A DNA stretch of 64,000 nucleotides from the NCBI GenBank assembly GCA_028753945.1, contig JAPNXP010000007.1, positions 2,418,001 through 2,482,000 on the forward strand. Direction: 5' to 3'. This document shows, piece by piece, positions 10,251-38,402 of the stretch. The translations under genes and the position numbers were made by a program. Numbering within the stretch: position 1 is the stretch's first letter; each line of letters opens with the position of its first letter. This DNA comes from Hexactinellida sp. DTS-2022. Lineage: Eukaryota > Porifera > Hexactinellida. A model generated the notes under the pieces. That model was not told the DNA's origin. It searched no databases and saw only the letters and a program-made list of their open reading frames with translations.

Positions 10251-10823
10251 GGTTTGTTCATAGACTACTTTAAAAAAGGACTGTAGGCTGCCAGCTCGGG
10301 TCCTGGAACTTGGGTCCATTGTGTCTTATTGATATCTCGTAATACGATAATGAAAGACACATTAAATGCATTATTGTCGTATAGGAAGTCATATTATGGG
10401 AGTCAATTGGTCATATTGCCTTATATCAAAAATTTGTGGGATGTGAGTTTTGCGGTTTTCACACTTTTCCATATATAGTAATATTCTCAAATTCTTGACT
10501 TCAGTTAGAGTTAGACATAAGAAATGTATTATTGTCGAATAGGAAGTCACATGTAAGGAAGATATTGGCATGTGGATGTGGACTATCACTAATTAGCAGT
10601 TCTCGACAAATTAGGTGGTTTGTAGGTTAGCCACCAAAAATCTTTCTTAAGCCACCAAATTTTTCCTTTGGAGGCTTAACTAATCCACCATTTGTGGATT
10701 ATTTGACCATGTGTAGAATATATTTTTTGTTGCATTATTTGTTATTAATATTAGTGTTGTTTTACGACATCAGAAGTTTGTTAAGCCATCAGTGGTTTGT
10801 TAAACCAGCCATTGTTTACTGAT
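10251..10823 (+). repeat. Left arm of a 2-kb inverted duplication
   Basis: Matches the reverse complement of 11700-12290 over about 570 bases. It carries two spaced copies of a word like AAATGTATTATTGTCGAATA (near 10372 and 10523) and a hAT MITE starting at 10597 whose inner end is missing. Confidence 0.8.
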
Positions 10824-11650
10824 TTAAATCGGTAGGAGGTCCAACTGGCTAATTTCTACCTTTTACACAGTCGCCCAAACACATTCAAAATGTGATTTAC
10901 GCACAAATATTTCTCTTCGATCTTTGAGACTCCCTGGATTATTTGGCATTGCCTCAATCTACCTATTCCGTTCATTTTAATCAGTATGAAAACGGAGTAT
11001 AAACTATTGCCCACATATCTAATTACACCATGTGCAATGCTTTGGCATAATTCGTATCCTGATGTCAGTCACTCAAACGCTTCAAGTAGGTGAATGCCAC
11101 TGATAAACAAAAAACTATTATAAAGAGCTGAACTTTAATAATCAAAGGTGGTTCAACAAATGTCAATAGATCAGTATTAATAAAAAATCCAGAACTAGCA
11201 TAATTTCATAAATTTACACATCGATGCTAAATAATCATTCTGGCTATTTTATAATCTCTAGTCATAAAATTTACATACTATACTATCAATAAATTTAACC
11301 ATAAAAATATACTATCATTTGTACACTCTTCGATTTATCCTCTTAAGTAGCGGATCTAGAAGTGGGCAGACACCCACCTAAGCCCCTCTGGATGTCTTCT
11401 CACAAGAACTTGTAGAGACTAGTAGGTTAGTTTTTGTAAAGATAATGTGATGTGTACAACAAACAGAATGATGATCGCAACTGGACATTCCAAGTTTATG
11501 CCAAGTATGAATCTCTAACTATAAATCTGTAAGAATATGAATCACTTAATATCTCCAACTCGTACACTGGGAAAATAATAACTTTGATCATATCTGGAGT
11601 TGTATAATAAGTAGGTAACTATGACACTACGAGTTATTAACTAATTACAG

Positions 11651-11946
11651 CAGTACTCGACAAAATGTAATTTTGATGGTGACCAATTAAACCACCACCT
11701 CAATTTTTATGGTGGCTAAATAATAAACAATGGTTGGGTTAACAAACCACTGATGGCTTAACAAACTTCTTACGCCATAAAACAACACTAATATTAATAA
11801 CAAATAATGCAACAAAAAATATATTCAACACATGGTCAAATAATTCACAAATGGTGGATTAGTTAAGCCTCCAAAGGCAAAATTTGGTGGCTTAAGAAAG
11901 ATTTTGGTGGCTAAGGCCAACAAACCACCTAATTTGTCGAGCACTG
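11651..11946. mobile_element. hAT-type MITE, CAGTGCTCGACAAA family
   Basis: Ends CAGTACTCGACAAAATG and TTTGTCGAGCACTG; right flank CTAATTAG, left flank CTAATTACAG (imperfect 8-bp duplication). Same family as 43829-44106, which has a perfect duplication. Confidence 0.8.
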
Positions 11947-12290
11947 CTAATTAGTGATAGTCCACATCCACATGCAAATATCTTCCTTACATGTGACTTC
12001 CTATTCGATAATAATACATTTCTTATGTCTAACTCTAACTGAAGTCGAGAATTTGAGATTATTATCATATATGGAAAAGGTGTGAAAACCGCAAAACTCA
12101 CATTCCACAATTATTTGAGATAAGGCAATATGTCCAATGGACTCCAAAATATGACTTCCATACGACAATAATACATTTCCTGTGTCTAACATTAGCGGAT
12201 TACGAGATATCAATAGGACACATGTACCCAAGTTCCAGGACCCGAGCTGGCAGACAGTCCTTTATTAAAGTAGTTTATGGGTTTGTTCAA
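11651..12290 (-). repeat. Right arm of a 2-kb inverted duplication
   Basis: Inverse copy of 10251-10823; the unique spacer is 10824-11650, in which I recognise nothing. Includes the complete hAT MITE at 11651-11946. Related shorter copies of the arm sequence occur at 13990-14140, 15253-15510 and 15870-15960. Confidence 0.8.
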
Positions 12291-23954: not shown

Positions 23955-24518
23955 CACTAACCAGCCAAAAGTATTTGAACAATTGGAATTTTATTGCAGA
24001 CACAATAGTCGTCTGGTAACTCATTAACGGCTGTTTAAACTACTCTGAAATGATTATAAATATCTTGCTATAGTTATACATTACAAAATATTTTGAATTG
24101 ACGTCATTATAGTCAATATCCATCAAGTGGCATAAGTGTATCTGCCACGTGCCACTCGTGGCACAAGTGGCAGAGATTGGAATGTGGCTGTATTTCAGTG
24201 GAAAATGAACATAATGATTTAAAATTATGCACCCAGAGTAATTCAACCATGTGGAATTCAAATCTGCAATCAGAACTTCTATATTTTCATTACATCTTGA
24301 AGATCAGAAATTATATATTTAATTAGCTAATTATATAGTCAATGAGTTTAACACCTCCATATAAATGTAAATTCAAAAGATTTGCTATTTTATTATACTT
24401 AAAATATCGTATTATGTATATAGCAGTGTTGATGAATCCGTCAATGCTATTATGCTGCTAGAAGCTTGAATAAATAAATACAAATTATTGCTGTTCAAAT
24501 ACTTTTGGCCGGTCAGTG
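23955..24518. mobile_element. Tc1-like MITE (CCAAAAGTATTTGAACA), copy 1
   Basis: Ends CACTAACCAGCCAAAAGTAT and ATACTTTTGGCCGGTCAGTG flanked by TA. Internal cluster of alternating GTGGC and GCCAC words at 24124-24175. Inserted in the MULE at 22204-24655. Confidence 0.88.
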
Positions 24519-24959
24519 TATATAGCATAGTATGCACATTTAATAAACCAACTTACAACGTGTGTCGAAGTGTCGTGTATCAAATAGTCGTGTATCGAAA
24601 TGTCGGTATCGAAATGTCGTGTATCAATTGTCATGGATCGAAATGTCGGTATCCCCTAATTAATATCAGTTAACTATTATTAAAGTATTTATTATTCATT
24701 TTATTTCAATTTTAGAAACATTGCAATAATTTATAACGTGCTTCCGAATAATTAAAAATCGTGAAGCTTGGGATTACCTTACATCCAAAAATCGGAAAGA
24801 GATGCTGCTCTCTCATTTGTTAGTGTATTTAATGTGGGCGAAAACGAAATGAACTATGTGAGATATAAATTCAACAGTTTAAAATCAAGCCGGGAAAAAA
24901 TAGAATAAATGTCAAGAAATTCTTGTTTGGGAAGATATGCTATTTTATTCATTCAATTC

Positions 24960-27411: not shown

Positions 27412-27428
27412 ATGACTGTATAGAAATT

Positions 27429-28139
27429 ATGACTGTGAAGTTGGCTTAGTATTCGACCAGGCTCACTTCAGTCAAATATTTGACTCACTTCTAGTTATTA
27501 GATTTGAATAAATTTAGTCTCGTTCGAAAGAGGAGATACGGAGGTTTCCCGTGATATTATTTATTTTTTAATTTTTTAACTTTCAGTTGGTTATTTTTAT
27601 CATACAAAGCCGCACTGGTATCTCATCAAAAATCACATTCTCAAAATTTGTTTACAATTCTGAAAATTTGTTACCATACTTTGGAGAGTTGGAGGTTTAT
27701 GTGATTTAATTTTCATTTAAAATTTCCCAAAAATTGTGGAGTTATGAACATTCAAACTTGAAGTTGGGAAAAAGAGTGGAAGTAGAATTTTGGAAAGTCC
27801 ATTGAGTAGGGTTAGTACAAAGTGTCAATTCCTATCCAATATCAACCTGAATCTATTTTATTTTGGTATCATTCGTTAGAAGAGACACGGAGGTTTACCT
27901 CAATGCCATTAGATTCCCGAATATTCCCTATATAACAGATAAATAAGTCCTTTAAAAATGGCTTAAATCTCTGTTTTTATTGTTTTATCTTTTCAAACTT
28001 TGAGCTCAATTTTCCGAGATAAAATTGAACCAGAATCGATTCAAACTTTACAGGTACTTTCTCTGATATATTATTATTCTATCCCCAGAAAAAAAAACAG
28101 GGGTCGCTAGTCATTTCTTTCAGAATTTTTTTAATTTCT
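27429..28139 (+). repeat. Left terminal inverted repeat of the OTU-MULE (711 bp)
   Basis: Reads as the reverse complement of 33853-34562. By eye the two copies differ only in a run of 9 versus 8 adenines near the inner end (28089-28097). A TATATAA box lies at 27929-27935, a possible promoter. Two copies of an imperfect motif containing ACGGAGGTTT lie at 27521-27550 and 27874-27900 and may bind transposase. Confidence 0.93.
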
Positions 28140-28475
28140 TGGACAGCAATAGCTAATTAATTAAATTTTCAATATTCATACTTTAGTTTATAATAAGCTC
28201 TCTACAAGTATGCACCTATAGCTATCCCTAAATGGTATTTCCCACAAGTCTAATTTGCGTCACACAATCGTTAGTTCCACTTACAAATTTAGCTGTTGCG
28301 CATTTAGGCTATTCTTAGAATATTTAAGCCTCGACTCAGGCTAGTAGGAGATTTCGAACTTTACATTCATTGCTTTTTTCATCACTCTTTCAAACTTAGC
28401 CTTGATTCTTCTACAATTATTTCTTGAACTTTAGTTCTTTTCTACAATTATTTATTGATTCATTATTCTCTCTCA

Positions 28476-31400
28476 ATGATTTCTATTGAATTGTGGCGTG
28501 CTCACATCGGATTGCATTGCAGCCGCAGATGCAATAATACCCATCATCGTCATCAATCAACAGACCAAACTGATTCATCTGTTTCGATCATCTCGGCTTT
28601 TATTGCATGTATAGTAGCCATTCTACTCGTCATTGGCGGCATCGAGATCAACCCTGGGCCTATCACCCCAGCTCAAGATACTCATCACGAACGAGGTAAT
28701 TTTGACTTATATATGTTATGGATAAGAATAACCTTTATTGTTATTTTTTTTAGAACTACCAGCTGAGATCAAATCTTTTATCGACGCACTCCTCTCCACA
28801 ACAATATCATTCGAACAATTGGTCCAGTCCCTGTCTGCAAGCTACAGTTCGCCCAGTTCCATTTGGGGTTCCATTTGTAAGAAAGTCTACTTGCGTAACA
28901 AGCCTGATAAGAGACATAGCCTGTACTTGAAGTGGAGAAATAATTCTTATGACGTAAGAACCCTGGTGAGGGATGCTTTGAGCGAAGTTAAGCCTTCAGT
29001 AAGTCCCCCTAGTTCGGAGGAGCAATTTCACGTGAGTTATAGTCTTAGTAACTTAACTATTCAGAGCAGAGTATCATTGGTAACTTCCACAATTCTTAAG
29101 GAAGTAAGTTTAAGTGTAGCTGCTTGTTTCGATTTATTTTCGTCATTCGATAACTTAGATTTAAGAAAACTTGAATTGAATGTAGTTGACGATAAACTAC
29201 TTATTGTGTGGGCATCTTCTGCGTCCGACCAAGCTATGTATGATCAGTTAAAGATAGATTCTCAGAATACAAATCTTAGTTCTCTGAATAGTGAAGGTCA
29301 CGACGTGTATTACATGTTCAATACAACTGAATGCCAGTTATGGGTAGACGGTGCTATGTTTTATGGATTAATTAATCCACAAAATGTTTCTGGTTTTTTA
29401 CAATTCGAGGAAATGTGCTATTTTGAGGAGTGTTTTGATTTTATTACCACGATTGAAAATACTTATTGTAAAAGCTTTGTGGAATGTACTCCTTTATTGT
29501 TTTTGTGGTTGTCTGAAGTACAGCTTGAATGTAGTTTCTTGTATCAAATGTTTGGTAAGAAATATGTGTTTTTAAGTGGAGATGACTTGAGTCTTTTTAT
29601 AACTTGGGTAAAGGTGTTGAGAGATGAGTACAATGCTAATGGTGTCAAGTGCTTAGAAAGCAAGTGTACTGATTTTAGTGTTAAAGTTGAAAGTGAATTT
29701 AGTGAACCACTTCCTCGTTCTCACGATGTGCCTGATATTAAAACTGACAACTTTGAAACACAAATGGTGATAGAAAGTTCTGAGATTGAAGTTATAAGTA
29801 GTACGAGTAGTAGTGACTGTGGTGAGTTTTATCTCGACATGAGTGAGTGGGATAATATTTGTATTACCAATTCTACTGGTAAACTTCATTGGTTAGTAAT
29901 TGGACTAATGTTTTTGCTGAAAAATTTAAAGATTTAGCCCCAATGTGTGTTTTGAAGTTTGTAAATTATTGGTTGAAGAAACCTGATAGTCGCAAGGTTA
30001 ATAGTCCACTCTTCAGAGCTAGAGCGTCTTGTAAGTTTGAAAATTGTCGATCTTATATCTTCTATATTGATGATGCACTAAATTTGGTAGATAATGACAT
30101 ACTTGTCAAAATTTACTCAGAAGGATGTTTGTCACTTCAACACACAGATGGACAGAGCGCACATAGTCGCCATCTATCTTGCAGTGAGCGTAGTAAAATG
30201 GGAGAATTATTAGTGAATAATTCGGTTAGTAAAATTTATAATAAACAATTTAATAATTCAAGTAATCATGGTCTCTGTTATGGTAATTTTACTTCTCTTA
30301 AATCACAAGATTGTTTGCGGAAAGTTAGAGCTGAATTGAAATCTACGGAGAGATTTTCTAATTTATATATGGAAGATATAACAGCAACCCAGCAGTATTT
30401 CCGTTATTTACTCCCTGAATCCCCCCTACCAGGCTATGTCCAGTATTTCGTACAGGATCCTTTCATTATTCATATGTATTCTTATAAGCAGCTGGAAATT
30501 CTAAAACTAATGAATAGTAAAGATATTGTCTTGAATTTAGATGCGACTGGTTCTCTTATTTCTAAACCCCCTTCCTGTTCTAAGAAAATATATTACTATG
30601 CCCTTACAATACAACACCCGGAGTTTTCCACTAGTCCCATCCCATTAGCTGAAATGATAAGTAGCGATCATAGCACAGCTGAAATCTCACACTTCCTAAA
30701 TAAATGGTGTTTGAGTGTAAAATTATTTAACACAATGGAGTTAAAAATTAAGAAAGTTGAGATAGATTTTAGTTGGGCTATGATGCACAGTACATGTTTA
30801 GCGTTTAACAAATTTACTATTTTTCATTATCTCCAATATTGTTGGGAATTTATAGCTAATAGTGAGAACTTAGGTGTTATAACAGTCCTCCATCTCTGCT
30901 CGGCTCATATCATGCACAGAATTAGTTATAATTTAAATAAGAAATTCAAATTAGAAAAGGCTTTAAAAAGATTAATATTGCATGTATTTGGTCGTATGGT
31001 TAATAGTAAACAAATGGATGAAATTAATCAACTTTTCGGGTTAATTTGTTATATTTTGTGTAGTAAGAAGCAAACTAGTGTTTATTGCACTAAATTAAAC
31101 CAACTAGAAGAATGTATTAAGGCGGAGATTAATGTTAGTAATGATGTTCCCAATGAATTCGAGGATGAGACTGAAGTTAAAAGTAATGCTGTAACTTACA
31201 GAGATAAATCCCCTTTTGGCAGACATTTTGAAATGATTTATCGTAATACCTTAGTCTCAATAAGCGAATTCGAAAATAATTCGCAACTTGATCCTAGTGT
31301 TTCTTATAACCCCCAGATAGTTGAATCTCTTCTAACGTATTATATGCCATTGTTACCGTTGTGGAGTGGGATAATTTTATGTACAGTTAATTCGTCAGAG

Positions 31401-32513
31401 AATGCAACAGACAGTAATGCGATTGTTGAGAATTGGTTCAGAATAGTTAAACACAGCATATTTAATTCAGAGACCGGGATACGAGCTGCTGATTTCATCA
31501 GAACAGTTTATAATAATATAGACGATAGGATCGCGGCGTTTAAATTTGCTTTCACTCCACTGGCTCATAAAGTGTTTAAAGTTAAGAAGAGATTACGCGT
31601 AGAGAATGAGGAGGAGTGCAAAGAGGAGTGGTCTAGAAGTAAGAAGAGTAAATTTAGTTATACTAAACCAACTGTTGATAAAGTTAGTAAGATATTTACA
31701 AATTTCAAGTCTAAAAGTTTAAGTAGTAAAAATAAAAGTTTTAATGTAGAAAGTATAAGTAAACGTTCAATAGACAGAGAGGAAGCTACTATTTGTGAAG
31801 AGAATCCAGTCGATGTTGCTACAGTTATTAATGATATAGTGCGTGCAAGTGTGGTTGAAATAATTGGTGATTTAGATTTAGTAGAAATGGCTACCATGGA
31901 ATATAAGTTACCGGCATTCCAACCACTTACATATCGGGGACAGAAGAAGTTATGTGAAGGTTTACATTTACAGTTGTCGGATTCTACAAATTCCATAAGA
32001 GATAATATCCCAGCTAATTCTAATTTAAAAGAATATGTACCTTCAAAGTGTTTGCGAATTCCTGGAGATGGAAATTGTTTATTTGCATCATTGTCGTACT
32101 GGTTGACAGGAAATATTGATGGTTTTAATTTAGTACGGTTGAAAGTTGTAGAGAATATGGTTGGTAAGCTGAAGGATGCATGCAATAAGTTTATTGCCAA
32201 TAAATTTCCAAGGAGTGTAATCAACTATCGTAATGTGGCAGACTATGTAGTAAAATCTAATATGAAGAGGAATTCTACGTGGGGTACTGATGTGGAGTTA
32301 TTTGCAACAGCCTTATTATTGCATACGGATATTTGGGTATTTAGTTCAGACATGGGTAACAAGTGGATGGTATTCTCAGGCAGAGGTGCTAAACTAATTG
32401 ATACTTTGGAGTCTCCTCCAGGAAATAATGCAGGCTCTATCTATATTAATCATAATGGAGTGCATTATGAACCAATACTAAGGGTGGATTTAATATCTAC
32501 GGGCAATCAATGA
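28476..32513 (+). CDS. MULE transposase with N-terminal 2A-like motif and C-terminal OTU protease domain (3 exons)
   Basis: Exons 28476-28695, 28754-29821 and 29938-32513 join in frame to 1287 codons plus stop. The start is the first ATG after an in-frame TGA at 28425. Order of parts: hydrophobic segment about residues 37-53 running into GGIEINPGP at 54-62 (2A-like, skip expected between G61 and P62); an unrecognised region about 74-430; a zinc-finger-like C461/C466/H498/H505 (WRKY-GCM1/FLYWCH type); a DDE core with D631 (LNLDATG), D706 (EIDFSW), C750-x2-H753 and E927 (VENWFR); a basic linker about 977-1002 that could act as a nuclear signal; an OTU domain with D1140 and C1143 in PGDGNCLFAS and H1272 in NGVHYEP. 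DDE residues would cut and join DNA; OTU domains are cysteine proteases, usually deubiquitinases. The join is my inference from splice sites and phase. Confidence 0.85.
28696..28753 (+). other. Intron 1 of the OTU-MULE gene (58 bp)
   Basis: Begins GTAATT and ends TTTTTTTAG. It splits a codon after its first base, so G plus AA gives Glu and joins the 2A-bearing exon in frame to the long second exon. Without splicing the first frame stops soon after. Confidence 0.8.
29822..29937 (+). other. Intron 2 of the OTU-MULE gene (116 bp)
   Basis: Donor GTGAGT (consensus) and acceptor AAAGATTTAG. It also splits a codon after the first base (G plus CC, Ala) and removes both the stop ending the second-exon frame and the TAA that closes the third-exon frame upstream. 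Of the donor/acceptor pairs I tried, only this one keeps frame with good sites. Confidence 0.72.
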
Positions 32514-33249
32514 ATTCACTGATTACCTCGTAGTCGTAGATATTAATTAATTAAAACTATATAATTAGAAAACCAAAGGATTCCCTTTATTAGTTAATGA
32601 TTAATTGTCTTATGCGGAATGTTATCCAGGTTTAGAAGCGATCCAATTAATTACATCGATAGAAGCAAAGAAGAATAAAATTATTTCGGGCTCTTATAGC
32701 GCAAAAAATTGCGATTCTCATTTCTACAGGCAATAAACAAACATTTCTACAGCCACCTTCTCTACTTAAATAGTGAAGATTTTCAACAACATTTATGTTG
32801 GACAGTGTGACATAGCGGTGTGTGGTCCGCGAGAGCTTATGATCAGTCACTCCCAGGAGGACTAGGCGCTGCTGGAGCTGTGTAGACAGCGAGAGAGAGC
32901 AGGCCTAGTTGTGTCGCGACGATGGAAGAAGACCATCTGGACGAGGTCGGATACAGCGGTCTTAGTGAGCGTACCGTGGGTAGAGGACTGGACCGTCCTC
33001 CTGATGAGGCCTATGGAGGGCCGAAACCCTAGAGTGGTGGCGACACCACTTGGACCACTTGAGCTGTCAATGGTGGCAGCTTGATACAGAAAGGTCCCAA
33101 AGCTTCTCATGACAACAGTTATAAAGTGGTAAGTTCTATTCTTAAATGTACATGTGGATGATTTATAAATATTTGTGTAAAGATTTATCCTATAGTTCTT
33201 TAAAGGAAGGCAAATACAAAAAGGAATTGATCTATCCCAAAGCAGTCGG

Positions 33250-33440
33250 AATTGATAACAGCTACAGTAGTCTCCCAAAACGGACACTCCGAGAAGCGGA
33301 CAACACATTTAAAACGGACAAACCTCCTGGAACGGAATGAATTTACCATGCATGTAATTAATACTTCAGCCGTCTCCGAGAAGTGGACATCTCCAGAGTC
33401 CAAAGAACAAAGGCCATTTCCCCAACATGTCCGTTATTCG
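33250..33440. repeat. pogo-like MITE piece inside the OTU-MULE
   Basis: Contains CAGTAGTCTCCCAAAACGG followed by repeated AGCGGACA/GTGGACA words, the style of short pogo/Tc1-type termini. Limits are uncertain. The flanks carry short direct repeats (GGAATTGAT, GGATGCCATTCT). Confidence 0.35.
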
Positions 33441-33852
33441 GACGGTAAACACATATTATTTTAATGAGATACCTGGATGCCATTCTCTCTTCTTGGAATT
33501 GGATAAGTAAGATCAATCCAAAAAGCAGTGGGAATTGATACAAGCACACATTGTGGATGCCATTCTTCTTGCATTTGTTAATAATTATATAATTATCACT
33601 ACCATTATTTCAACCAGAATAATTCATTGTTTACTTATTCTGTTTGCATTCCAATCTGATGTCTTAGTTATATAGTTGCAATTACAATTTGCTATTATTA
33701 GTTGAAACTCAATACTACAATGGGAACTAAGATAAGCGAATGAATTGTGTTACATTACGTAGATAGTATATATGATATCACTAATATTGATGTTATGATG
33801 AAATAAAGATAGGCTTAGCTAAAATAATGAGATCGAAATTAAAACATTTTGG

Positions 33853-34562
33853 AGAAATTAAAAAAATTCTGAAAGAAATGACTAGCGACCCCTGTTTTTT
33901 TTCTGGGGATAGAATAATAATATATCAGAGAAAGTACCTGTAAAGTTTGAATCGATTCTGGTTCAATTTTATCTCGGAAAATTGAGCTCAAAGTTTGAAA
34001 AGATAAAACAATAAAAACAGAGATTTAAGCCATTTTTAAAGGACTTATTTATCTGTTATATAGGGAATATTCGGGAATCTAATGGCATTGAGGTAAACCT
34101 CCGTGTCTCTTCTAACGAATGATACCAAAATAAAATAGATTCAGGTTGATATTGGATAGGAATTGACACTTTGTACTAACCCTACTCAATGGACTTTCCA
34201 AAATTCTACTTCCACTCTTTTTCCCAACTTCAAGTTTGAATGTTCATAACTCCACAATTTTTGGGAAATTTTAAATGAAAATTAAATCACATAAACCTCC
34301 AACTCTCCAAAGTATGGTAACAAATTTTCAGAATTGTAAACAAATTTTGAGAATGTGATTTTTGATGAGATACCAGTGCGGCTTTGTATGATAAAAATAA
34401 CCAACTGAAAGTTAAAAAATTAAAAAATAAATAATATCACGGGAAACCTCCGTATCTCCTCTTTCGAACGAGACTAAATTTATTCAAATCTAATAACTAG
34501 AAGTGAGTCAAATATTTGACTGAAGTGAGCCTGGTCGAATACTAAGCCAACTTCACAGTCAT
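33853..34562 (-). repeat. Right terminal inverted repeat of the OTU-MULE (710 bp)
   Basis: Partner of the left repeat. Near-identity over 710 bases means the two ends have had little time to diverge, or were recently homogenised. It ends CTTCACAGTCAT and is followed directly by the duplicated target ATAGAAATT. Confidence 0.93.
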
Positions 34563-35612
34563 ATAGAAATTCCCATACATTTGATCGGGACTTTTAAATT
34601 GGTTGACAATAGAGCAATGTTGCAAATAGGGGAGTTGTTAATAAAGCAACTCGACTGTATTTGAATATACAGGACATTCCAGTATCAGGAGTGTATGATG
34701 AAATAATTGGAACCAGGTTCAATCAATATTGCAATGTGTTCTTCATATTCAGTCTATAAACTGCTGGACAACATTAGCATCAAACGATATTAGTGCTAGA
34801 TCAGAAATCCGAAAGACATTCACATTCCTTCAGAGAAGTATCTTAGTAATGCACGTTGCTAGTACACAGGATCAACAGGTCTAGCCGAGATAATTTAGTA
34901 ATTTGTGAACAAATAAAATAATATTGTAGTTAGGATTGGTGTAAATCAAAGCAGATTCCAGTGTTCATAAACCGGACTTGGTCTGTATGTGTCTGACGGG
35001 CTGGGGACGGGGCTCAAAAAATGAATTCTCCTAGGCGCGGGGAGAAGACATAAGCTCGTGGCGACCTCCAGATAGTTGAAATAATTTGATGGGTTTGATT
35101 TAGTAAGGCAAATTTAATCGGAATATACTACAAAAATTATAGATTTTTGGTAAATCATCATTGTTGGTCGCACTAGAATTCATTTCATCTATAATGAATT
35201 CATCAATGGAATCAATAGAATATAAATTTTGGTATTTCGGCAACTTATATTCTTGCGCGATTAATTTAATAAATGTTTGACAATTCATCCTATGGAATAG
35301 TAATCACTCAGTCTTAAAGTATCTAGAATGAAAGCCTTACTGGCACACAGGAAATTTATTTGGCAGTTATAAATTTGATAGTTGATATTCTAAAATTTAG
35401 TACAAAAAGCATCAGTGTTTCGGTTTAATATTGATAATAGGTATTTTCTTATAGTTAGGTAGCTCTATATAACCATGTACCGAGAGACGAATACATAAGA
35501 TCCTTCGATTAATAAGTGAAAGTCTTTATATTAAGTAGGTTACAAGTAAATAGATCAAAGGAATAATCTATTCTAACTAAGTACTAGGGATTAGGAGTAA
35601 TTAACAATTCTA

Positions 35613-36545
35613 CATTAACAGGCCTAAAGTATTTGAGCAGCAATAATTTGTATTCATTAATTTAAAATCTAGTAGCATAATAACATTTGAATATGCTTCC
35701 ACATGGATCTTGACAAGAAACGATATGTACACTAACCGGCCAAAAGTATTTGAACAGCAATAATTGGTATTCCGACATTTGAGGTTATACCAGCATAATA
35801 ACATTAGCAGATTTTACAAGATGGCTATTTACATGAAACGATGTGTAAAGAATAATAAAACAGCAAAGTTTTCGAATTTTCATTTTTATGGAGGTGTTTA
35901 ACTCATTAAATATATAATTAGCTAATTAAATAATTAATTTGTAATCATTAAGATGCAATGTTAATATATTAATTCTGATAGCAGATTTGAATTCCACATG
36001 GTTAAATTACTCTAAGTGCTTAATTTCAAATCAATCCGAATATTTTCTGCTGTGATACAGCCACATTTCCATTTGTGCCACTTATGCCACAAGTGGCACG
36101 TGGCAGAAACACTTATGCCACTTCGTGAATTTTTCAAAATTGTATAGAAATCACAATATTTTGTAATTTATATCTATAATAATATATTTATAGTCATTTC
36201 AGAGTAGTTTAGATAGCAGTTAATAAGTTACCGGAGTAATGTGTCTGCATTAAAATCCCTATTGTTAAAATACTTTTGGCTGGTTAGTGTATACTAAATA
36301 ACATAATTTTTGAATTTACATAACAATGGAGGTGTTGAACTCATTAACTATATAATTAATTATTAAATATATAATTTCTGAATATGTTCAAACAATTAGA
36401 AGATACTAATTCTGATCCAGATTTGAATATCACATGGTCGAATTACTCCTAGTATATAATCTCTAATAATAAAGATTAATTTTCACTGAGATACAGGCAC
36501 AATTCCTACTGTGCCACAAGTGGCACGTGGCATGGACGCTTAAAC
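35613..36545. mobile_element. Tc1-like MITE split by another copy of itself
   Basis: Left part 35613-35729 begins CATTAACAGGCCTAAAGTAT after TA. Its continuation resumes at 36290 (CTAAATAACATAATTTTTGA). The right terminus is lost after the GTGGC cluster at 36510-36540. Confidence 0.7.
35730..36289. mobile_element. Tc1-like MITE, copy 2, nested
   Basis: Ends CACTAACCGGCCAAAAGTAT and ATACTTTTGGCTGGTTAGTG with TA on both sides (35728-35729, 36290-36291). Same family as 23955-24518; GTGGC/GCCAC cluster at 36076-36125. Confidence 0.88.
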
Positions 36546-37111: not shown

Positions 37112-38402
37112 TTAAATTTAAGGGAAAATTCCAAAAATACTCAACTTTTTTGAAAATTTCCAAATATACTCTACAATACTCAACTAATTTTTAAATATAA
37201 TCAAGTTTTTCCAAATATACTCAAGTTTTATTGGATTATTCCAAATATACTCAAGTTTTATTGGATTATACCAAATATACTCAAGTTTTATTGGAATATT
37301 CCAAATATACTCAAGTTTTATTGGAATATTCCAAATATGCTCAAGTTTTATTGGACTATTGAAACTAGCATGGAGATCCCAAACACAAATGTTTATTAGT
37401 ACAAGCTGCTCGTCTGCTCTACGCGCGTCCTTACAACTTGTACTCGGGCCTGCGGCCCTCGCTTGTATTTCAAGCATGTTCCTTTTCAAATTAAATGTCG
37501 TTCTTGATGAGTGGCCCCTATTAGTCTATTTATATCCGTGGATCCTAGCTACAGGTTTATATAGAGTAAATGATTTGGATATTTATGCTAAATTGAACAG
37601 ATAATTTTCTAGATATTAAAGCTCGTCCGTGTATAATAATATACAAACTCCAAATATAATATTAAATATCACTAAGAAACTGTACCAGTGGAACCCTAAT
37701 TTTGGGATGTGGAGAAGTTATTGAATTGATTGATAATAATTTGATATCAAATAACACAATGGATTGTTAGAAATGTATGGCTAGACAGACAGAGCACAAA
37801 TAACTGATTAATTGCCTTAACTTCCTCTCGACCAATTATATTACTGTCTCAGTATTCCATAATGCACACTTAACATTTGACAGACACTAAAGCATTCAAT
37901 TATACTAATTGGATGCTAACTTCTAATCCATACTGGAAAAACCTTCGAATTTAATTGGCTAAAGGTTTCGCACCTTTTGTGATGGAAGATGTGAATATTT
38001 TTTTAGATATTGAACTTGTTTGCACATACAGTATTCCCTACCCCCCTTGCCAAATTTCAAGTCTGTAGCTTTTACCAGTTCCTCAATCAATTCTGAACAA
38101 ACAAACAAACAAACAAACACAAAAACATTGTGATTTAATGTATAAAATAGATCAAATATAGCCTTTCTAAACTTGAGTAGATCTGTGAACTTACTGAAAA
38201 GTTGAGTAGATTTGGAATTTATTGAAAAACCTTGAGCAGAATTGGAATTATTTTTAAAAACTTGAGTAGAATTGGAATTTTTTTTAAAAACTTGAGTAGA
38301 TTCGGAAATATCTAGTTTTATATTTGAGTGTCAGTAAAGTTGAGTATATTTGGAATTTTTTAAAAAAGTAGAGTATTTTTAGAATTTTCCCTTAAATTTA
38401 AT
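37112..38402. mobile_element. Element with 30-bp tandem repeats as inverted ends
   Basis: Left end ATTAAATTTAAGGGAAAATT and right end its complement. The left arm (37130-37360) is a series of about 30-bp units such as CCAAATATACTCAAGTTTTA; the right arm (38160-38390) is their inverse with drift (ACTTGAGTAGATTTGGAAT). The interior has a (AAAC)n microsatellite at 38096-38122 after a stretch that looks like a non-LTR/SINE tail, and no transposase. A 6-bp AAATTT may be the target duplication. Confidence 0.6.

Follow-up and report, generated by a model that had tools for sequence, protein, structure and literature searches.

The window analysed here is a stretch of 64,000 nucleotides from Hexactinellida sp. 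DTS-2022 (contig JAPNXP010000007.1), and at 27429..34562 it contains a transposon that an earlier note had described as an intact Mutator-like element (MULE) in which a 2A-like leader, a DDE core and an OTU protease are joined in one spliced gene. Our analysis indicates that this element is likely a frame-broken copy of a MULE-like cut-and-paste family, that the intact gene of this family has two exons, and that its leader is probably a shared cassette. The ends of the element and the parts of its gene are as follows.

27420..27428, no strand: target-site duplication, left copy, ATAGAAATT, perfect 9 bp
27429..28139, forward strand: 5' terminal inverted repeat, 711 bp (sequence comparison of both ends)
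28476..28695, forward strand: exon 1, encoding the leader in 73 codons and one further base (copy comparison; leader in 10/10 copies read)
28696..28753, forward strand: intron 1, predicted, 58 bp, GT..AG (borders and phase kept in copies)
28754..29937, forward strand: first part of the second open reading frame (ORF2) in the window copy, reaching a stop after a frame shift (reading frame and copy comparison)
29883..32513, forward strand: second part of ORF2 in the window copy, 876 codons (reading frame and copy comparison)
33853..34562, reverse strand: 3' terminal inverted repeat, 710 bp (sequence comparison of both ends)
34563..34571, no strand: target-site duplication, right copy, ATAGAAATT, perfect 9 bp

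The near-identical inverted ends and the perfect duplication reported earlier were confirmed in coordinates and letters, the sole difference between the two inverted repeats being one base inside an A run, and the element is probably a recent insertion. Searching the assembly (112.4 Mb in 18 contigs, with the window on contig 16) for other copies, as the earlier note had suggested, returned at least 60 rows with an 857-residue piece of the protein as query, including further copies of the family. We compared ten close-family loci (L016-L025), with the rearranged L022 dropped from every copy comparison. Both ends were present in six copies, including that of the window; five of these carry differing 9-bp duplications and one carries an 8-bp duplication, lengths that fall within the 8-11 bp of Mutator/MULE elements. 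Since the duplications differ among copies, the family has inserted at many places. No relatives of the window element were found in the viral contigs searched, and a loosely chosen DNA pattern was uninformative, with counts of 232/224 against 490/473 for the reversed control.

Comparison of the copies changed the gene model. The three exons of the earlier note do have GT/AG borders and join to 1287 stop-free codons as read, but they do not represent the true gene structure. The stretch at 29822-29937, which had been taken for a second intron, is 117 bases long and lies in one open frame in 9/9 other family copies compared, whereas it has 116 bases in the window copy, where no frame is open across it. 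"Exons 2 and 3" are a single open frame from stop to stop, of 1260 codons in four copies and 1251 in one, and translation of one intact copy gives 1326 residues. The same stretch is conserved as protein in relatives, including named vertebrate ones (P0020, P0026, P0032), and covers the beginning of the tentative WRKY-GCM1-like domain described below. By comparison with these copies and relatives, "intron 2" is coding sequence; the one-base frame shift makes it resemble an intron, and the window copy, being out of frame here, is not intact. The original reading, in which both introns are real and the window copy is whole, draws on the splice borders and the 1287 open codons, and in view of the longer, coding stretch in every other copy compared we consider it extremely improbable. 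This case exposes a trap in the reading of raw sequence, as a one-base shift can mimic a short intron exactly.

Intron 1, by the same comparison, is supported, although not proven. Its donor and acceptor borders are kept across ten copies, and exon 1 of L025, which is 88% identical and two codons shorter, still fits the phase of ORF2. Were the upstream open frame instead no part of the transposase mRNA, and the 58-bp "intron" an accident, the start of ORF2 would be difficult to account for: its conserved stretch (SIWG...LYLKW), shared with distant relatives, has no ATG before it in frame. The conservation of both splice borders, the phase kept in L025 and the in-frame, intron-free fusion of homologous leaders to other proteins (see below) likewise argue against an unrelated upstream frame, which we regard as very unlikely. 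The two-exon gene is used in what follows, beginning with the leader that exon 1 encodes.

28581..28643, forward strand: hydrophobic segment at leader residues 36-56 (Kyte-Doolittle peak of 2.98 across 19 residues)
28635..28661, forward strand: 2A-like tail GGIEINPGP, with the predicted skip between G61 and P62 (motif and copy comparison)

The 2A-like leader claimed in the earlier note is present, and GGIEINPGP holds the only NPGP in the six frames of the window. The leader terminates in NPGP in 10/10 copies read (GGIEMNPGP in L025), and its GIEINPGP tail has all letters but the first of the D(V/I)ExNPGP consensus. With the base composition of the window applied to the genome as well, chance would produce 0.00001 occurrences of G-I-E-x-N-P-G-P in the window and 0.02 in the genome, and 0.16 of NPGP alone in the window. 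We found 51 genomic matches to G-I-E-x-N-P-G-P compared to 0 for the reversed pattern; the pattern G-D-(I/V)-E-x-N-P-G-P, whose V/I position accepts some further residues as well, gave 48 compared to 0, with 0.001 expected by chance. The ratio of nonsynonymous to synonymous substitution rates (dN/dS) for exon 1 was 0.14 against L020, 0.37 against L023, 0.19 against L021, 0.15 against L024 and 0.59 against L025; for ORF2 of L016 against L020 it was 0.21, with all these values coming from small counts. The leader of the window family is real as a conserved sequence.

Behind the leader, the intact product contains, in order, an N-terminal domain, a WRKY-GCM1-like domain, an RNase H/DDE core with CxxH, and an OTU protease.

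29821..30140, forward strand: WRKY-GCM1-like domain, tentative, limits approximate; the "intron 2" stretch is its first part (fold comparison)
30432..31574, forward strand: RNase H-like DDE core (relatives' alignment, model and fold matches)
30540-30542, 30765-30767, 30897-30908 and 31428-31430, forward strand: DDE residues D, D, CxxH and E, respectively
32061..32481, forward strand: OTU cysteine-protease domain with DGNC and HYEP motifs (Pfam and motifs)

The DDE core of the earlier note was borne out by the columns of a 34-row alignment, by the structural model and by fold matches, which place CxxH between the second D and the E on an RNase H fold. The best solved fold for the core is the ISCth4 transposase (6xgx, 6xg8; 10-11% identity), which we take to be IS256-type. 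This fold, the DDE core with CxxH and the 9-bp duplication uphold the assignment to MULE-like transposons; long terminal inverted repeats, common but not universal in Mutator/MULE elements, are present as well. No Pfam MULE profile matched the window protein at an E value of 10, and hhalign against PF20700 relatives gave 0.8%; one distant relative (P0048) is labelled at its source "MULE transposase domain-cont...". The OTU similarity was recovered by profile search (PF02338, E 3.5e-8, 34.5 bits with a cut-off of 23.3), and the DGNC and HYEP-type motifs are conserved in 4/4 database relatives checked (P0002, P0007, P0009, P0011). Among nine loci of the same genome, the DGNC pattern was found in seven (not L027 or L030) and the second motif pattern, which the window's own family does not fit, in five; other branches of the transposase carry Ulp1 or PHD in place of OTU. 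The WRKY-GCM1-like assignment, which the earlier note had also raised, stands only tentatively and by fold, with FLYWCH and GCM structures absent among the listed fold-search matches.

Among named relatives, the nearest to the window protein belong to Oopsacas minuta, a glass sponge (P0016, P0017; 38-42%), and further ones to fish, a lizard, barnacles and insects, among others. Of 55 database relatives, the tree used 22 and the core alignment 21. When residues 1-440 were used as the query of a protein search, nothing matched at an E value of 1; we ascribe this to word sampling rather than to absence, since P0003 shares the N-terminal region with the window protein. Huntingtin, the sole match of the profile against PDB sequences (E 0.11), was taken as chance.

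The leader also occurs outside this family. A genome search with the leader alone returned 109 rows with E of 1 or less, and E was below 0.001 for 79 of these, with some rows being pieces of one place; a search with a second leader returned 95. The best 28 leader rows have 74-100% identity, and for 20 of them one of the 28 family transposase rows considered is no more than 7 kb away; weaker rows are part of other genes. Five further loci were read (L039-L043). At two of them, L041:34-2535 (forward strand) and L043:30-2759 (reverse strand), the frame of the leader continues into a PF20700 "Mutator-like transposase" (E 9e-38 at L041, 1.5e-36 at L043). The C-terminus of the L043 protein is PHD-like, slightly under the Pfam cut-off. 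At a third locus, L039:160-1464 (forward strand), the leader is in frame with a protein that combines ERLKDPEKRAEHN-type repeats with a cysteine-rich stretch; this protein had no Pfam match above cut-off and is conceivably of Helitron-like origin. A leader is also present at L042. The window leader matched those of L042 (E 5.7e-10), L043 (6e-5) and L041 (8.9e-5), and that of L039 at only 0.038, with the L039 leader being linked through L042 and L043 in the second leader search (E 2.6e-8 and 2.8e-9). An alignment of six leaders, drawn from three or more protein families, has 15 invariant columns between the MIS start and NPGP.

A database search with the L043 protein found 13 relatives, four of which have an N-terminal NPGP tail (P0056, P0057, P0059, P0062) and three of these an MIS start; one NPGP-tailed relative is 41% identical over the matched part, and the source species of these deposited leader proteins may include the window's own. 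The window transposase and the PF20700 transposase show no detectable similarity by hhalign (0.1%, and 0.8% for the window family against PF20700 relatives); since the aligned piece lies around CxxH, a remote common origin of the two is possible. With homologous leaders on PF20700 transposases and on a third protein, the leader, from its sequence, looks like a cassette common to other genes that the window family carries as its 5' exon.

Leaders of a different kind are found in more distant subfamilies. Across 13 loci (L026-L038; protein 38-52% identical), NPGP occurred in the fetched DNA of L036 only (C13:4674300-4683900), which has a different leader with a canonical GDIEVNPGP and is not among the 109 leader-search rows. 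L040 has the same leader as L036, and this distant subfamily thus has its own 2A leader in at least two loci. The tree shows two or more changes of leader state over well-supported branches, so that the 2A leaders of two branches either arose separately or were lost and regained.

How the leader might act is suggested by the NLR genes of a sea urchin, whose N-terminal leaders double as 2A and signal sequences, with the skipped product being cytoplasmic and the unskipped product exocytic (PMC4981915); apart from these genes, the 2As reviewed there sit internally in viruses and non-long-terminal-repeat (non-LTR) retrotransposons. The sea-urchin leaders resemble the window leader in combining an N-terminal 2A-like sequence with a hydrophobic signal-like stretch, although they stand on immune genes, whereas the window leader stands on a transposase and has G for D in its tail. 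By analogy, the transposase may be split between free and membrane-bound forms: most ribosomes would skip the Gly61-Pro62 bond, freeing the transposase of its hydrophobic leader and allowing it to enter the nucleus, while an unskipped minority would be kept at membranes. Since one form would be free and the other held at membranes, the leader would determine the amount or the location of the enzyme. The WRKY-like domain would then bind the inverted repeats, the DDE core would cut and join with a 9-bp stagger, and the OTU domain may remove ubiquitin from the transposase or from repair factors. If so, transposase 2A leaders would be a new means for selfish DNA to govern enzyme dose or place.

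Two observations weigh against this account. The top Foldseek matches of the WRKY-GCM1-like region are mostly hot-dog thioesterases, and the G in place of D lowers the claim to a canonical 2A, though not to 2A-like working. The leader could also have a lesser role: it might be a membrane signal-anchor with a weak or dead 2A tail that leaves the transposase mostly fused and tethered. A hydrophobic stretch of this strength, some 36 residues into the protein, would suit an anchor, as would the replaced D and the dependence of 2A activity on suitable upstream context (PMC4981915). However, the tail keeps its GG, E, N, P, G and P in all six leaders compared, which stem from three protein families, and a GxExNPGP 2A, that of DHAV-1, is reported active (PMC6249498); we find a pure anchor unlikely. 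A separate question is the source of the leader, which could have been acquired from a host gene family rather than from another transposon. Precedent comes from the sea-urchin NLR genes, which bear 2A signal leaders at the N-terminus (PMC4981915), and many leader matches lie in short open frames of unassigned genes. In contrast, of the three long genes read behind a homologous leader outside the family, two encode PF20700 transposases and the third another protein, and a host origin seems to us doubtful. We give roughly even odds to the fuller proposal, namely that a cassette MISxExWRxxIG...hydrophobic...GG(I/V)ExNPGP has been swapped among dissimilar DNA transposons, serves as a ribosome-skip switch between free nuclear and membrane-bound enzyme, and has become a spliced 5' exon in the MULE-like family. 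If this cassette reading is correct, a shared leader on otherwise dissimilar transposases would be a clear exchange of parts between mobile elements.

The element also carries a GC-rich island between the stop codon and the 3' inverted repeat.

32839..33114, forward strand: GC-rich island matching a dispersed genomic repeat, limits approximate (genome search)
32975..33032, forward strand: type III hammerhead ribozyme motif in the island (RF00008, 33.2 bits, E 6.3e-5)

The hammerhead score is under the RF00008 gathering score of 48.5, such that the motif is seen at a lax threshold only and Rfam gave no match within the window at gathering score. The isolated minimum-energy fold of the region differs from the hammerhead fold, and folding alone thus gives no support. 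The motif is present in 9/9 family copies covering the site, including the window's, and its 58 bases show 0-2 changes. A genome search with the island gave 44 rows, 15 full-length and 29 partial, which suggests a dispersed repeat that entered an ancestor of the family. The genome holds at least 68 type III hammerhead matches to RF00008, 64 of them over the gathering score, with none in 14 control genomes. Animal retrozymes are described as type I in PMC7761336, which would make a type III hammerhead here of interest.

Several other repeats were observed. L028, L029, L034 and L036 have inverted ends made of internally repeated blocks, resembling foldback termini, with block offsets of ~173-186 bp in L028, L029 and L036. 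In the window, an inverted repeat pair (24012-24524 and 35724-36235; 81-85%), ~11-12 kb apart, encloses the element; long inverted arms (87-95%) at 10320-12222 are perhaps another inverted-repeat transposon, and a 30-bp tandem repeat lies at 37179-37389.

Among known systems, no 2A leader on a DNA transposase was found among the listed titles and abstract openings of searches on 2A with DNA transposons or Helitrons. Odon in 2013 reportedly described 2A in APE-type non-LTR retrotransposons; these are likewise 2As of mobile elements, but the window family is a DNA transposon. The ISCth4 transposase, the closest solved fold, differs in being bacterial and without OTU. Rehavkus elements resemble the window element in their 9-bp duplication, inverted repeats of up to hundreds of bp and animal hosts (PMC6446971), and PHD fingers, a Rehavkus trait, occur on some relatives of the window protein. 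Identity with Rehavkus was rejected, as the window element has no PHD match and no minisatellite before its 3' inverted repeat. According to PMC2836005, Ginger1 transposases carry OTU or Ulp1, and Mutator elements Ulp1. Ginger1 is thus similar to the window family in having a C-terminal OTU or Ulp1 (and sometimes PHD) on a DDE transposase, but it has a Gypsy-type integrase core, whereas the core of the window family is nearest to the IS256 type and the family makes a 9-bp duplication; identity with Ginger1 was dropped on core type and duplication. MuDR-6_HM of Hydra, in MULE group 14, has "Ovarian Tumour Gene" among its motifs in Table 1 of Dupeyron et al. 2019 (PMC6446971) and, going by that description, is an animal MULE with OTU like the window family, although the motifs listed for it there include no 2A leader. 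Because OTU and Ulp1 on DNA transposases are already in print, including OTU on MULE and Ginger1 elements, the OTU part of the domain order from which the earlier note proposed a new family is not new; the part not found in print is the 2A leader on the transposase.

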